DNA of 64,000 nucleotides from Herminiimonas contaminans (lineage in GTDB: Bacteria; Pseudomonadota; Gammaproteobacteria; Burkholderiales; Burkholderiaceae_D). The position numbers and the translations under genes are program-made. The stretch spans positions 1-64,000 of the forward strand of contig NZ_JADOEL010000016.1 in the NCBI RefSeq assembly GCF_015645465.1. Direction: 5' to 3'. Below are positions 22,790-28,127 of this stretch, one piece after another (the first letter of the stretch is position 1; each line of letters begins with the position of its first letter). Under the pieces are notes generated by a model. That model did no database searches. It saw only the letters and a program-made list of their open reading frames with translations, and was not told where the DNA came from.

Positions 22790-23176
22790 GATGACTCCAA
22801 GGGTAATTCTGTACTAAAGGACAATATTAGTCGGGAATTAAATATGGCGCTGGCCCTTTGTTGAATTACCTTACGCGCTGCGTCCTACCTGTAAATCCCG
22901 ATTGCTTCAGTAGACCTCATTCCGGGGTGAAAGTGCTACTGAAACTGTGTAAATGGATGCGCTTATTTGTAACAAATAATGTATGGCTGCTGCCTGTAGA
23001 CGCTTGTCATCATTTCATTCAAGTCGTGTCATCGCACCAAATCACCGCAGCGAAATTCTCATAATCAAGCGCGTTTTTATTCGTTTGTCGCGTATTTGCT
23101 TTCTTATATTCTGATTGCACGAATTCAGATACGGCCATCAATGATGGCTGTAAGCAGTCAAGCAAAGGAAAACGAA
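22790..23176. promoter_or_regulatory. Divergent control region between lipoprotein and rhodanese genes
   Basis: A 387-base non-coding stretch. It holds a 17-base inverted repeat, TTATTTGT-A-ACAAATAA, at 22963-22979, and a small hairpin GCCATC-AAT-GATGGC at 23134-23148 in the presumed leader of the rhodanese gene. AT-rich hexamers (CATAAT near 23059, TATATT near 23105) could be -10 boxes, but no convincing -35 partner was found. The rhodanese ribosome binding site is AAAGGAAAA at about 23164-23172. Confidence 0.45.
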
Positions 23177-23644
23177 ATGAGTGTATCGCTCCAATCTGCA
23201 GCCGCAGCCCACACATATGAAAAAGAGGATGGTTTAGCACCGGTTTCCGAACTGTTGTCTAAAGACGGCGTGTCGCCGCAACTCGCATGGCAGCTTTTTT
23301 CCAGCGGCAAAGCCGTGCTGGTAGATGTGCGTACCGCGGAAGAACGTGCCTTTGTCGGTTATGTGCCTGACAGCGTCCACGTGGCATGGGCCACCGGTAC
23401 CAGCCTGACACGCAACCCGCGCTTCGTGCGCGAACTCGAAGCCAAAACCGGCAAGGATAAAACCGTACTGTTGCTGTGCCGCAGCGGCAAACGTTCAGCG
23501 CTGGCAGCAGAAGCTGCACAGAAAGCAGGCTTCACCCAGGTCTTCAATGTGCTCGAAGGTTTTGAAGGTGAGCTGGATGAGCAGCAGCATCGTGGTGGCA
23601 GTGATGGCTGGCGCTATCACCAGCTACCGTGGGTACAAGCTTGA
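23177..23644 (+). CDS. Rhodanese-like domain protein of the encapsulin cluster
   Basis: A 155-residue single rhodanese domain (sulfurtransferase). The active-site loop is LLCRSGKRS with catalytic Cys101, and the N-terminal part has the usual LVDVRTAEERAFVGYVPDS. Rhodaneses carry sulfur as a Cys persulfide between donors and acceptors. The ATG at 23177 (MSVSLQSAAAAHTYEKEDG) with an AAAGG site is chosen over earlier in-frame TTG/ATG codons. It lies two genes upstream of the encapsulin shell and cysteine desulfurase; rhodaneses are reported among common neighbours of family 2A encapsulins, so it may hand sulfur to or take sulfur from the compartment. Confidence 0.85.
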   Translation: MSVSLQSAAAAHTYEKEDGLAPVSELLSKDGVSPQLAWQLFSSGKAVLVDVRTAEERAFVGYVPDSVHVAWATGTSLTRNPRFVRELEAKTGKDKTVLLLCRSGKRSALAAEAAQKAGFTQVFNVLEGFEGELDEQQHRGGSDGWRYHQLPWVQA

Positions 23645-23663
23645 TTGCCTGACTCGGTACACG

Positions 23664-23933
23664 ATGAGCAAGTTGTGTGTGTCATTGGGTCTGGCGGTGC
23701 GGCAATTGCGTGAAGCCCATGGCTGGTCGCAGGAAGCGCTGGCAGAAAAAGCGCAATTGAATCGTTCCTATGTCGGTGAAGTCGAGCGCGGCAAAACAAT
23801 ACCATCACTGATCACGCTGGACAAACTGGCCAGTGCGCTCGGCCTGAAAGTATCCGATTTGCTGCTGCATTGCGAACGCATCAGCGGCTTGCAGGCGGTC
23901 TACAAACTCAACTTGGCGGCTATAGCATGTTGA
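23664..23933 (+). CDS. Small XRE-family helix-turn-helix regulator
   Basis: An 89-residue protein that is almost entirely a Cro/C1-type helix-turn-helix (LGLAVRQLREAHGWSQEALA followed by EKAQLNRSYVGEVERGKTIP, about residues 8-47). The ATG at 23664 follows the rhodanese stop by 19 bases. It contains three cysteines (5, 70 and 89), two flanking the end of the DNA-binding fold, unusual for so short a regulator. Likely a local regulator of the rhodanese-encapsulin-desulfurase genes; no experimental link is visible. Confidence 0.82.
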   Translation: MSKLCVSLGLAVRQLREAHGWSQEALAEKAQLNRSYVGEVERGKTIPSLITLDKLASALGLKVSDLLLHCERISGLQAVYKLNLAAIAC

Positions 23934-23955
23934 GGCCAGGTCGAATCCCGCCGAC

Positions 23956-23970
23956 ACTCAGCGCCTGAGT
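23956..23970. repeat. Small inverted repeat before the encapsulin gene
   Basis: ACTCAG-CGC-CTGAGT, a six-base stem in the 112-base gap between the XRE gene and the shell gene. No T-run follows, so it could be an operator half-site pair or an mRNA hairpin that sets the shell gene apart from the regulator in expression. Confidence 0.35.
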
Positions 23971-24045
23971 CGTGCGGTTTCACTGTTACGTCTAACTCTT
24001 ACTTTTGCATCACTCCTTATTCATCTCTAATTATCGGAAATTCTC

Positions 24046-24978
24046 ATGGCAGATACTTCTTCATCACAAGTGGCGTTGGGCGACAATGCAGCGCGCCAGT
24101 TAGCGAATGCAACCAAAACCGTTCCGCAGTTATCGATCATCTCGCCACGCTGGCTGACGCATTTGCTGCAATGGGTGCCGGTTGAAGCAGGTATCTATCG
24201 TGTGAACCAGGTTAAAAATCCTGAGTCGATCAAAGTAACCTGCACCTCGCGTGAAGAAGAAAACCAGTTGCCGCGTACCTTCGTCGATTACGAAGAGGCA
24301 CCTCGCGAACATTATCTGAATGCCGTCAGCACCATCCTCGACGTGCATACCCGTGTCTCCGATCTGTACAGCAGTCCGCACGACCAGATCAAGGAACAAC
24401 TGCGCCTGACCATAGAAACCATCAAGGAAAATCAGGAAAGCGAACTCATCAACAATCCAGACTACGGCCTGCTGGCGCAAGTAACGGATGAGCAGCGCAT
24501 CTTCCCGTTGACTGGCGCACCGACGCCGGATGACCTGGATGAATTGCTGACCAAAGTCTGGAAAGAGCCTGCATTTTTCCTTGCGCATCCATTGACGATT
24601 GCCGCCTTTGGTCGCGAAGCGACGCGTCGCGGCACACCTCCACCGACAGTCAGCCTGTTCGGTTCACAATTCATCACATGGCGCGGCGTCCCGCTGATCC
24701 CCTCGGACAAAGTGCCGGTCGCGGATGGCAAGAGCAAAATTATCCTGCTGCGCGTAGGCGATAAACGCCAGGGCGTGGTTGGTTTGTTCCAGCCTGGTTT
24801 GCCGGGCGAACAAAGCCCGGGCTTGTCGGTACGCTTCATGGGTATCAACGGCCAGGCCATCGCTTCTTACCTGATCTCCTTGTACTGCTCTCTGGCGGTG
24901 TTGACACCTGATGCGCTGGCCGTATTGGATGATGTGGAAATTAATAAATACCACGACTATCCGGACACCTACCGCTAA
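24046..24978 (+). CDS. Family 2A encapsulin nanocompartment shell protein
   Basis: A 310-residue HK97-fold shell protein of the SrpI-like family 2A group. Its N-terminal arm and body (SIISPRWLTHLLQWVPVEAG followed by IYRVNQVK; LPRTFVDYEEAPREHYLNAV followed by STILDVHTRVSDLY; and C-terminal NKYHDYPDTYR) match this family as I know it. There is no cyclic-nucleotide-binding insertion, which excludes family 2B. Many copies assemble into an icosahedral shell in the cytoplasm that encloses a cargo enzyme. The cargo is almost surely the cysteine desulfurase that starts 9 bases downstream. The compartment type is linked in published work to storage of elemental sulfur. Confidence 0.9.
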   Translation: MADTSSSQVALGDNAARQLANATKTVPQLSIISPRWLTHLLQWVPVEAGIYRVNQVKNPESIKVTCTSREEENQLPRTFVDYEEAPREHYLNAVSTILDVHTRVSDLYSSPHDQIKEQLRLTIETIKENQESELINNPDYGLLAQVTDEQRIFPLTGAPTPDDLDELLTKVWKEPAFFLAHPLTIAAFGREATRRGTPPPTVSLFGSQFITWRGVPLIPSDKVPVADGKSKIILLRVGDKRQGVVGLFQPGLPGEQSPGLSVRFMGINGQAIASYLISLYCSLAVLTPDALAVLDDVEINKYHDYPDTYR

Positions 24979-24987
24979 GTCGCGACC

Positions 24988-26937
24988 ATGAGTAACACAT
25001 CCCTTCCTGCGCAACTTCCGCCTGGCGGTGAAGCGCCTATAGATCCGGCCGTGCTGGCGCGGATGGCGAGCGCCTTCTTTTCGGCTTTGCCGAATCAGGG
25101 TACGCCACCCCTGCCTGGTGTACAGGCCCCGCTCAATCTCGCACCGCCAGGTTCGCCACTCGCCAGTCCGGCAGGCCTGGGGCCGTCGGTGCCGGGTACG
25201 CCTATCCCGCAAGGGCAGATCCCGGGCACTAACTTGTTGCCTGCTTCGCCTGCGCAATTGCCATCATTGGCTAATCGCGCGCCTGCATTATTGCCACATG
25301 CGAGCGCACCTAACGGTGTGCCGGATACGGTGATCAGCACCTTGCCAGCGTATGAACCACGTCTGGGCGGAGCGGTACTCGGGGTGCCGCAAGCGGCACC
25401 TGATGACAGCGCAGCACCGTACTACTTCCTGCAGCAAGGACAAGCTGTGGCAGGCGAACGCGATAACGGTACTGGGTCAGTAGACATCCTTGATCAGCTG
25501 GCGCAGCAGCCTTTTGCTGCGCCAGTCGTCAGTGACATACCGAAATCGCAAGCTGCTGTGCCAGTCACTCAGCCTTCAACCGAGCCTAAGTACTACTTCG
25601 TTGATTCAGTCGTCTTACCTAGTGGTTACGTCACGCCAGCGAAAGCACATCCACATGGTGGTACGCAAGCGATAGGCATTCCGCAAGCAGATCAGAGTCT
25701 TCATCCTGCATTTGATGTACATGCAGTGCGCCGGGACTTTCCGATCTTGCAGGAACGTGTCAACGGTAGACAACTAGTCTGGTTTGACAATGCCGCGACC
25801 ACGCACAAACCGCAATCTGTCATAGACCGTATCGCTTACTTCTACGAACACGAAAATTCAAATATTCATCGTGCCGCACATGAGCTGGCAGCGCGCGCCA
25901 CCGATGCCTATGAAGGTGCACGACAACGTGTGAAACACTTCATCAATGCGCCGGATGTGAATGAAGTCATTTTCGTGCGTGGAACGACGGAAGCAATCAA
26001 CCTGGTAGCGAAAAGCTGGGGTGGGCAACATGTGGGTGAGGGCGATGAAATCATCGTCAGTAATCTCGAGCACCACGCCAACATCGTACCGTGGCAACAA
26101 CTCGCTGCGGCCAAAGGCGCGAAGCTGCGCGTCATCCCGGTCGATGATAACGGTCAGGTCATTCTGTCCGAATATCAAAAGCTGCTGAACGACAGAACCA
26201 AAATTGTCGCCGTCACGCAAGTATCGAACGCATTGGGTACCGTGGTCCCGGTGAAAGAGATCGTCGCACTGGCACACCGTGCCGGAGCCAAGGCTCTGGT
26301 CGATGGCGCGCAATCGATTTCGCACATGCGAGTAGATGTGCAGGACATCGGAGCTGACTTCTTTGTATTCTCCGGACACAAGGTATTTGGTCCGACCGGC
26401 ATAGGTGTGGTCTGGGGCAAACGGGAAATATTGGAAGACATGCCACCATGGCAGGGTGGCGGCAACATGATTGCCGATGTCACCTTTGAAAAAACCGTAT
26501 TCCAGCCTATACCCAACAAGTTTGAAGCGGGTACCGGCAACATCGCGGATGCGGTTGGGCTGGGCGCGGCGATCGATTACGTCAACAAAATTGGTATTGA
26601 AAACATTGCGCGCTACGAACACGAGTTACTGGTCTACGGCATGCAAAAACTGGGAGCCATCCCCGGCGTGCGCCTGATAGGTACGGCAGCGGACAAAGCC
26701 AGCGTCATGTCCTTTGTGTTGCAGGGCTACACCACTGAAGAAGTCGGTCATGCGCTGAACGATGAAGGTATCGCAGTACGTACCGGACATCATTGCGCAC
26801 AACCGATCCTGCGTCGCTTCGGGGTGGAAACGACAGTGCGACCATCACTGGCTTTCTACAATACCTATGATGAAATCGACAGGTTAGTCGCAGTGGTAAC
26901 GCGACTGGCATCGCAGCGCACACTGGTGACCAGATAG
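24988..26937 (+). CDS. SufS-type cysteine desulfurase with N-terminal cargo-loading extension
   Basis: A 649-residue protein in two parts. Residues 1-240 are rich in Pro, Ala, Gly and Gln with no predictable fold, the disordered targeting domain of family 2A encapsulin cargo. It contains two similar aromatic segments, APYYFL (144-148) and PKYYFVDS (200-207). Residues 243-649 form a PLP-dependent class V aminotransferase domain: start DVHAVRRDFPIL, PLP lysine Lys465 in FSGHKVFGPTG, and catalytic Cys603 in RTGHHCAQP. It removes sulfur from cysteine to give alanine and a persulfide. It follows the shell gene by 9 bases and is surely cotranslated. Normal SufS is about 400 residues, so the extra ~240 are specific to cargo function. 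Confidence 0.93.
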   Translation: MSNTSLPAQLPPGGEAPIDPAVLARMASAFFSALPNQGTPPLPGVQAPLNLAPPGSPLASPAGLGPSVPGTPIPQGQIPGTNLLPASPAQLPSLANRAPALLPHASAPNGVPDTVISTLPAYEPRLGGAVLGVPQAAPDDSAAPYYFLQQGQAVAGERDNGTGSVDILDQLAQQPFAAPVVSDIPKSQAAVPVTQPSTEPKYYFVDSVVLPSGYVTPAKAHPHGGTQAIGIPQADQSLHPAFDVHAVRRDFPILQERVNGRQLVWFDNAATTHKPQSVIDRIAYFYEHENSNIHRAAHELAARATDAYEGARQRVKHFINAPDVNEVIFVRGTTEAINLVAKSWGGQHVGEGDEIIVSNLEHHANIVPWQQLAAAKGAKLRVIPVDDNGQVILSEYQKLLNDRTKIVAVTQVSNALGTVVPVKEIVALAHRAGAKALVDGAQSISHMRVDVQDIGADFFVFSGHKVFGPTGIGVVWGKREILEDMPPWQGGGNMIADVTFEKTVFQPIPNKFEAGTGNIADAVGLGAAIDYVNKIGIENIARYEHELLVYGMQKLGAIPGVRLIGTAADKASVMSFVLQGYTTEEVGHALNDEGIAVRTGHHCAQPILRRFGVETTVRPSLAFYNTYDEIDRLVAVVTRLASQRTLVTR

Positions 26938-27156: not shown

Positions 27157-27786
27157 TTGGACGGATCAAGCAAAGCACATCAGATTTCAGACCTCGCAGA
27201 ACTGGAGCGTATATACGGCCAGCCTATGGCTGCTTCGATACGCAAAGAAATCGACTACATCCATCCGCATTACCAGGCCTTCATCGAAGCTGCGCCATTT
27301 GCGGTGCTGGCAACCAGCGGCCCGGATGGGCTGGATGCATCGCCGCGCGGTGACCCGGCTGGGTTCATCCATGTACAGGATGAGAAAACATTGTTGCTAC
27401 CGGATCGTCGCGGTAACAATCGCATAGACAGCCTGCGCAACATCATCAGCGACCCACGTGTGGCAATCATCTTCCTGATCCCGGGCATAGGCGAAACAGT
27501 CAGGGTCAATGGTCGCGCCAGCATCCACAACGATCCTGCTTTGCTTGAACGCTTTGCGATAGAGGGCAAGGTGCCGCACACGGTCTTAAAAATAGCAGTC
27601 GAAGCCGTCTTCTTCCAATGCTCACGCGCGATCTTGCGTTCTGGTTTGTGGAAAGCGGAGCAACAGATAGAGCGTAGTTCTTTGCCTAGCCTCGGTACTA
27701 TCTTGAGCGATCTGAGTGGATCAGAGATAGACGGTGAGAAGTACGATGCGGACTTGCCGCAGCGTTTGAAGACGTCGATTTACTGA
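27157..27786 (+). CDS. PNPOx-like FMN-binding flavoprotein (MSMEG_1061-type)
   Basis: About 209 residues with the pyridoxamine-phosphate-oxidase split-barrel pattern: IEAAPFAVLATSGPDGLDAS followed by PRGDPAGFIHV, then LLLPDRRGNNRIDSLRNI and VRVNGRASI. The start is taken as TTG at 27157 because AGGAG lies 7 bases upstream and the family begins near there; the frame is open back to a TTG at 27091 without a ribosome binding site. The substrate is unknown; members are FMN- or heme-binding oxidoreductases. It is 219 bases after the desulfurase and overlaps the next gene by one base. Confidence 0.8.
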   Translation: MDGSSKAHQISDLAELERIYGQPMAASIRKEIDYIHPHYQAFIEAAPFAVLATSGPDGLDASPRGDPAGFIHVQDEKTLLLPDRRGNNRIDSLRNIISDPRVAIIFLIPGIGETVRVNGRASIHNDPALLERFAIEGKVPHTVLKIAVEAVFFQCSRAILRSGLWKAEQQIERSSLPSLGTILSDLSGSEIDGEKYDADLPQRLKTSIY

Positions 27787-28127
27787 TGAATACTAAGAAT
27801 GAAGTGGTTTGTGCTCGTATCAGGCTCAAACCGGATAGCCTGCCACTGGTGCGTGAGTGGGCTGCATACATCGCAGCACATAGGGAAGAAGCTTTGCGGA
27901 CGCTGGAGGCAGAGGGTGTCGTGATCGAATCGGTTTTTCTGGATACGGTTGAGGGCGTTGACTACTTGGTCTACTACATGCGTGCGCCGTCTTTGAAAAA
28001 GGCGGAGGTAGTCGCAGTCAAATCATTGGCTGACGTTGATCTATATCATCAGAATTTTAAAAAGACGACATGGGAAAAAGTCTCCCGATTGGAATTGCTG
28101 GTTGATCTTGATCGTAGCAATACATAA
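27786..28127 (+). CDS. DUF6176 family protein
   Basis: A 113-residue soluble protein (KPDSLPLVREWAAYIAAHRE, then VESVFLDTVEGVDYLVYYMR with one residue differing) that I match to DUF6176, a small alpha/beta domain of unknown function. The ATG overlaps the flavoprotein stop (TGATG), so both are translated from one mRNA. No catalytic motif is evident. Confidence 0.7.
   Translation: MNTKNEVVCARIRLKPDSLPLVREWAAYIAAHREEALRTLEAEGVVIESVFLDTVEGVDYLVYYMRAPSLKKAEVVAVKSLADVDLYHQNFKKTTWEKVSRLELLVDLDRSNT

Follow-up and report, generated by a model that had tools for sequence, protein, structure and literature searches.

A Family 2A desulfurase encapsulin operon of Herminiimonas contaminans with a dedicated XRE regulator and two putative promoters

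The desulfurase encapsulin cluster

The first 64,000 nucleotides of the Herminiimonas contaminans contig NZ_JADOEL010000016.1 (assembly GCF_015645465.1; hereafter the window, meaning the whole stretch analysed) carry an encapsulin nanocompartment cluster of four plus-strand genes, which Pfam and NCBIfam models identify as a single-domain rhodanese, an XRE regulator, a Family 2A encapsulin shell and a cysteine desulfurase cargo. An initial annotation, made from the letters alone, had recognised the four consecutive genes at the coordinates listed below, with 9 bases between the shell stop codon and the cargo start, and all of this was confirmed. It had missed two putative promoters (P1 before the rhodanese gene and P2 before the shell gene, where the coding sequence of the regulator ends), the putative operator GGCTATAGC and the loss of an acetyltransferase gene from the cluster. 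The features are as follows.

23051-23087, plus strand: P1 sulfur box, CysB-like, consensus approximately CGTTTTTCnTnTTTnnGAAnnnnnTTTTTATTCGTTTG, kept upstream of the rhodanese gene
23107-23112, plus strand: P1 -10 hexamer TATTCT, 21 bases past TTTATTCGTT, with TA...T at fixed spacing in the profile
23134-23160, plus strand: candidate XRE operator at P1, degenerate, with the palindrome GCCATCAATGATGGC followed by GGCTGTAAGC
23177-23644, plus strand: single-domain rhodanese, 155 aa, PF00581, catalytic Cys101 in CRSGKRS
23664-23933, plus strand: XRE regulator, 89 aa, HTH_3 (63.3 bits, cut-off 23)
23913-23933, plus strand: putative P2 operator TTGGCGGCTATAGCATGTTGA, shared with the final codons and stop codon of xre
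23930-23958, plus strand: putative P2 promoter, -35 TTGAGG (23930-23935), 17-bp spacer, -10-like GACACT (23953-23958)
24046-24978, plus strand: Family 2A encapsulin shell protein, 310 aa, NF041162, PDB 8t6r
24988-26937, plus strand: encapsulated cysteine desulfurase, 649 aa, NF041166

The shell protein matches NF041162 with 523.2 bits (cut-off 380) over residues 11-305 of 310 and has no other Pfam domain, so that the curated Family 2A model is matched without a cNMP domain. The related 2B model is also passed (418 bits, cut-off 400), through the shared part only. A family search had been named in advance as the test of this assignment, and the curated models agree that the 310-aa protein is a Family 2A encapsulin. 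The closest solved shell is PDB 8t6r (559 bits, residues 3-310), which we take to be from Acinetobacter; SrpI (6x8m) follows with 484 bits.

The cargo matches NF041166 with 944.3 bits (cut-off 800), its class V aminotransferase domain covering residues 264-633. The catalytic residues are of the SufS type, Lys465 in SGHK (26380-26382) and Cys603 in RTGHHC (26794-26796), and these positions, like that of Cys101 in the rhodanese, had been given correctly. Cys603 is the sole cysteine of the 649-aa protein; a single cysteine from the FDNAAT motif onward was seen in 48 of the 69 homologous cargoes scanned. The N-terminal part of approximately 240 aa holds motifs at 25054-25083, 25414-25437 and 25591-25608. 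Both published targeting motifs are recognisable, as LARMASAFFS and AAPYYFLQQ, together with an additional KYYFVDS, and at least two YYF motifs occur in 16 of the 69 cargoes. These counts cover the 69 of 94 cargoes that passed the anchor filter and hinge on the regular expressions used.

The rhodanese matches PF00581 with 57.9 bits (cut-off 22.2) and PDB 8w14 with 196 bits. Cys101 is its only cysteine and is kept in all 90 homologues, as Lys105 is in 87. Identity with GlpE was rejected (29.4 bits, below the cut-off of 102).

Family 2A desulfurase particles are associated with the storage of elemental sulfur. The family matches confirm the compartment as a Family 2A desulfurase encapsulin operon, a known type whose assembly into particles in this organism is predicted. 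The encapsulin class, the desulfurase cargo, its long targeting tail and the link to sulfur had all been annotated correctly and are already in the literature, as the accessible text of two reports indicates (PMC8346489; PMC8049743). The first describes 1281 Family 2A operons with desulfurases, in which serine acetyltransferases and rhodaneses are the most enriched accessory genes; the second describes loading through the N-terminal domain of the cargo, two cargo motifs and induction on sulfur starvation.

For comparison, 100 loci were assembled: the window, the best 80 matches listed and 19 loci from relatives in a set of 100 genomes. The shells of the 80 listed matches are 85-93% identical to that of the window, which makes the sample close and narrow. 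The loci with genus names belong to what we take to be Burkholderiales genera. The short loci L002-L021 do not enter the counts, as their places duplicate those of L102-L120; L021 is a second small contig of genome G088, without a longer copy.

Gene order is conserved beyond chance. A desulfurase match lies directly 3' of the shell gene in 97 of the 100 loci, the three exceptions (L025, L095 and L120) being contigs that end just past the shell, and a rhodanese match lies upstream in 90. By profile matches, the order rhodanese, serine acetyltransferase (SAT), XRE, shell is found in 76 loci, 74 of them with a desulfurase seen behind. The order rhodanese-SAT-shell-cysteine desulfurase (CyD) occurs in eight loci, among them L075, where an XRE gene overlaps the shell frame and which was counted as XRE-bearing in the site statistics. 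Six loci have SAT-shell-CyD and six have other orders. The arrangement of the window, rhodanese-XRE-shell-CyD, is shared with three genomes only (G001, G002 and G011; four loci in total). One shell gene is present in the H. contaminans genome, and 20 of the 100 genomes searched, this one included, carry one.

The regulator and a DNA site in the 3' end of its gene

The XRE regulator is dedicated to the shell locus. In the 100 genomes a search with the protein gave 13 matches of at least 67 bits, all at shell loci and in 12 of the 20 shell genomes; the next best match (47.9 bits) lies away from shell loci. A search of 369 genomes of the wider class gave matches at E 1e-15 in 19, including H. contaminans itself (134.5 bits); the others reached at most 71.6 bits, and no shell gene was found in the 27 loci fetched with up to 1.5 kb on each side. 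The recognition helix hardly varies among homologues. The AlphaFold2 model has five helices, the last one long (mean predicted local distance difference test score 91.9, last block 67), and neither Pfam nor this model revealed a sensor or ligand domain beside the helix-turn-helix (HTH) domain and the long last helix. The nearest solved relatives by family profile are the controller (C) proteins C.AhdI (70.5 bits) and C.BclI (65.5 bits). No restriction-modification genes stand next to xre, its neighbours being the rhodanese, shell and desulfurase genes, and the regulator is therefore not filed as a C protein, though it may work like one.

Before the shell gene lies a conserved site with the pattern TTGRYGGCTATAGC[A/C]TGTTGA. 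It is present in all 83 XRE-bearing loci and in only one of the 17 loci without XRE (Fisher P 1.3e-17, not corrected for relatedness); a search of 3669 frames of these 17 loci with the family profile gave no XRE match at E 10. Three of the loci lacking both regulator and site, L042 (Duganella), L053 (Ottowia) and L099 (Acidovorax), come from genera that also include site-bearing members with XRE. The site threshold was the 99.5th percentile of shuffles, and the 99th percentile was used for the P1 profile and P1 palindrome described below.

The site is kept independently of the reading frame. The xre frame contains it in 63 loci. In the other 20 the regulator is shorter, and the site comes after its stop codon or still further 3'. 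One locus (L109:5264-5927) has a tandem XRE pair 5' of the shell, with the tail DNA (GTCTATAGCATGTTGA) out of frame behind the first gene. The in-frame DNA mostly reads TTG-GCG-GCT-ATA-GC[A/C]-TGT-TGA. The isoleucine codon of the tail is ATA in 63 of 63 cases, against 15 of 340 other isoleucine codons of xre. Among the 62 of 63 tailed regulators that passed the anchor, the third positions of the tail have an entropy of 0 in four of six codons and of 0.3 and 1.0 in the others, against 0.46 to 1.4 for the third positions of 17 near-invariant HTH columns. The frozen third positions, the ATA bias and the out-of-frame copies together mean that the constraint acts on the DNA.

A -10-like element of the form xAxAxT follows the site with a spacer of 17 in 65 of the 83 loci and of 18 in another 16, while 26 other offsets gave two matches in total. 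The offset in the first scan had been picked to fit A2, A4 and T6, and a second scan repeated the analysis free of this choice. GACACT is the prevailing hexamer, and none of the 83 loci has T at its first position. The palindrome is centred near -42.5, which is the position of class II activators, and the bases between the site and the -10 vary freely. No RNA element was detected at P2 by Rfam at E 1.

The H. contaminans genome holds one exact copy of the site, none with one or two mismatches and eight with three. A wider XRE regulon in this genome was considered and rejected; a reversed control pattern gave 2. The pattern GNCTATAGCNNGTTGA was found in 12 of 100 genomes, nine times at XRE-shell loci and three times elsewhere (G043, G047 and G084); the latter are within background, since the reversed control gave 26. 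Three XRE-bearing genomes (G017, G046 and G059) have variant sites missed by GNCTATAGCNNGTTGA, and the short pattern TTTATTCNTT alone is barely enriched (38 matches, control 31).

The rhodanese promoter and the missing acetyltransferase gene

A profile combining TTTTTATTCGTTTG with TA...T at fixed spacing recovers the putative promoter P1 before 87 of the 90 rhodanese genes, missing L053, L062 and L064. On the H. contaminans genome the best match of the P1 model is the window itself (28.8 bits). It is followed by an operon with EpsC- and TauD-type genes (13.8 bits, E 0.14), a DUF1223-like gene (13.5), a position inside nadA (13.2), cysTW (12.6, E 0.34), a position close to a chemotaxis gene (10.3) and a seventh match (7.9). 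The CysT, CysW and EpsC identities were tested by profile; the nadA, DUF1223-like and chemotaxis names were read from translations. The weak P1-like box 5' of cysT/cysW in the same genome (L212:1501-1551) has the same orientation as these genes. Both sulfur-gene boxes end approximately 55 bases before the first-Met start and are oriented with the gene, and the box of the window is centred approximately 50 bp before the deduced start.

CysB binds approximately 50-60 bp before transcription starts, its inducer is N-acetylserine, formed from O-acetylserine, and its consensus has been called very weak, according to the accessible part of the source (PMC11329422). It may be the CysB-like box upstream of the rhodanese gene that conveys the sulfur state, a weaker inference.

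Behind the P1 -10 the palindrome of P2 is found again in 60 of the 87 loci, namely in 59 of 79 with XRE and one of eight without (P 0.00095, not corrected for relatedness). In 32 of the 60 it begins at the same base and is centred about on the deduced start. A clear P1 operator is present in L112, a locus of the same genus.

The SAT of these clusters is an EpsC-type serine O-acetyltransferase, as tested on the copy of L112 (NF041874, 162 bits, cut-off 150). Its gene, between those of the rhodanese and XRE, is present in L112 (genome G008) and missing in the window and three other relatives of the genus; the window is a clade variant (four loci) without an acetyltransferase gene in the cluster. 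The H. contaminans genome has a CysE above the cut-off and, 48 kb downstream at C16:71865, a second gene, of EpsC type. The latter belongs to what appears to be a taurine/sulfonate-type operon (L175:3415-8339 of the same contig) with a TauD-like dioxygenase, an SsuA-like binding protein and ABC genes, the TauD- and SsuA-like members scoring under the curated cut-offs. It was rejected as a relocated cluster gene because it is only 52-56% identical to three shell-linked SATs and heads the taurine/sulfonate-type operon.

After the cargo gene, 27157-28124 encodes a PPOX-type flavoprotein (TIGR04025, 277 bits, cut-off 170) and a DUF6176 protein. Among the fetched loci this flavoprotein gene is found 3' of the cargo only in three same-genus relatives.

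A proposed relay, its rivals and known systems

In the proposed scheme the shell would assemble around the cysteine desulfurase by means of the motifs in the N-terminal tail of the cargo. The desulfurase would convert cysteine to alanine and produce persulfide or sulfane sulfur inside the compartment, and the rhodanese would carry sulfur to or from it; we infer this chemistry because the gene families imply it. P1, with its CysB-like box, would be switched on by sulfur limitation. The C-protein-like XRE would bind GGCTATAGCC-type palindromes, damping P1 at its start site and activating P2 from approximately -42, so that shell and cargo would be expressed after the rhodanese and the regulator. 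C proteins are activator-repressors whose left site activates and whose right site represses, as described in the accessible text (PMC3695507), and a similar left/right layout, here split over two promoters, suggests these two roles. A Family 2A operon with two promoters, P1 damped and P2 activated by XRE, is in our judgement the probable reading. The full relay, in which a CysB-type promoter would first make the sulfur enzymes and XRE, and XRE would then activate shell and cargo and shut P1, we hold to be an even matter.

Several observations weigh against this reading. XRE is missing from eight of the 20 shell genomes and is therefore not required for the compartment, and one locus without a detected XRE retains the P2 site (L096:5300-6010), perhaps having lost the regulator recently. 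The P1 operator of the window, like those of its whole clade, is degenerate (score -1.6, threshold 5.3), and 20 of the 79 XRE-bearing loci fail the P1 palindrome threshold. Taken singly, the two sulfur-gene matches of the P1 box are weak (E 0.14 and 0.34), and nadA, the DUF1223-like gene and the chemotaxis gene are not sulfur genes. By fold, ClgR ranks first among the relatives of XRE, with C.AhdI third and C.BclI sixth. The sample is narrow because the 80 named loci are those with the closest shells, and the locus counts for the P2 site, P1 palindrome and gene order ignore phylogeny.

The main rival is a plain local repressor that would block polymerase at the P2 -35 as at P1, its loss or inactivation opening both promoters. 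Many small XRE proteins act as repressors, the P2 site abuts and overlaps the -35 hexamer, and the P1 sites sit over the deduced start. However, a centre near -42.5 and the lack of T at the first -10 position in all 83 loci fit a promoter that depends on an activator, the profile comparison puts dual C proteins closest among solved structures, and XRE has no ligand domain; we consider such a repressor unlikely. That this is simply an ordinary published Family 2A operon with a housekeeping autoregulator agrees with the enzymes, all of which match published families, the rhodanese and serine acetyltransferase being listed as enriched partners in the accessible text of the survey (PMC8346489). 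It appears quite unlikely in view of a dedicated regulator with two sites, which was not found in the open-access literature searched, although this is not proof of absence. The P2 element could also be bound by another factor or act as RNA, its link to XRE being shared ancestry only, a view to which the phylogenetically uncorrected counts and the mere 17 XRE-less loci lend something. Yet the same palindrome stands at P1 and P2 and is missing from seven of eight and 16 of 17 loci without XRE, three of the site-less loci belong to genera with XRE-bearing members, Rfam gave no match at E 1 and the bases from site to -10 vary freely, all of which makes this view very unlikely.

The initial annotation had proposed that the rhodanese moves sulfur to or from the compartment and that the regulator responds to sulfur state. 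The rhodanese as sulfur partner had already been suggested in the survey (PMC8346489); the regulator's response, as worded, is unsupported, as no sensor domain was found and the terminal cysteine is explained by the DNA site. A sulfur sensor formed by that cysteine (LAAIAC-stop) would fit the 52 of 84 shell-locus regulators that end exactly in Cys, against none of 17 XRE proteins elsewhere. However, the last residue varies (C, G, S, R), and the DNA is kept out of frame in 20 loci next to regulators without that tail. With the site in frame in 63 loci and outside in 20, the conserved cysteine reflects the DNA site; together with the ATA bias and frozen third positions this led us to reject the sensor, which is scarcely credible. 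The case is a caution, a conserved Cys-ending protein tail beside sulfur genes having proved to be a DNA site.

The compartment, its cargo and the rhodanese link are already published, and control by the regulator is apparently new. If true, the relay would, to our knowledge, make XRE the first transcription factor dedicated to an encapsulin. The timing of nanocompartment building is poorly known, and a regulator with a conserved site in 83 loci offers a handle on the desulfurase compartment; the link of the compartment to sulfur-limitation promoters is tentative.

Among known systems, SrpI-CyD of S. elongatus (PDB 6x8m, 6x8t; PMC8049743) shares the shell family (484 bits), the cargo family and the adjacency of the two genes. 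Its published motifs LARLANEFFS and AASPYYFLDG correspond to LARMASAFFS and AAPYYFLQQ of the window, which adds the rhodanese and XRE genes and, as KYYFVDS, a further YYF motif; neither "regulator" nor "rhodanese" appears in the accessible main text of that report. With PDB 8t6r and the operons of PMC8346489 the window shares the closest solved shell (559 bits) and the rhodanese as an enriched accessory gene, but it has lost the SAT gene, and its dedicated regulator and two-promoter layout are not in the accessible text of that survey. Its box, centred approximately 50 bp before the deduced start, lies where CysB sites lie in regulated promoters according to the accessible part of PMC11329422, and a similar P1-type box precedes cysTW and the taurine/sulfonate-type operon; P1 is a candidate CysB target. 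C.AhdI and C.BclI, the best solved relatives by family profile, share the small XRE fold; the regulator of the window differs from C proteins in having its two putative sites on two promoters approximately 0.8 kb apart and a compartment operon as its presumed target.

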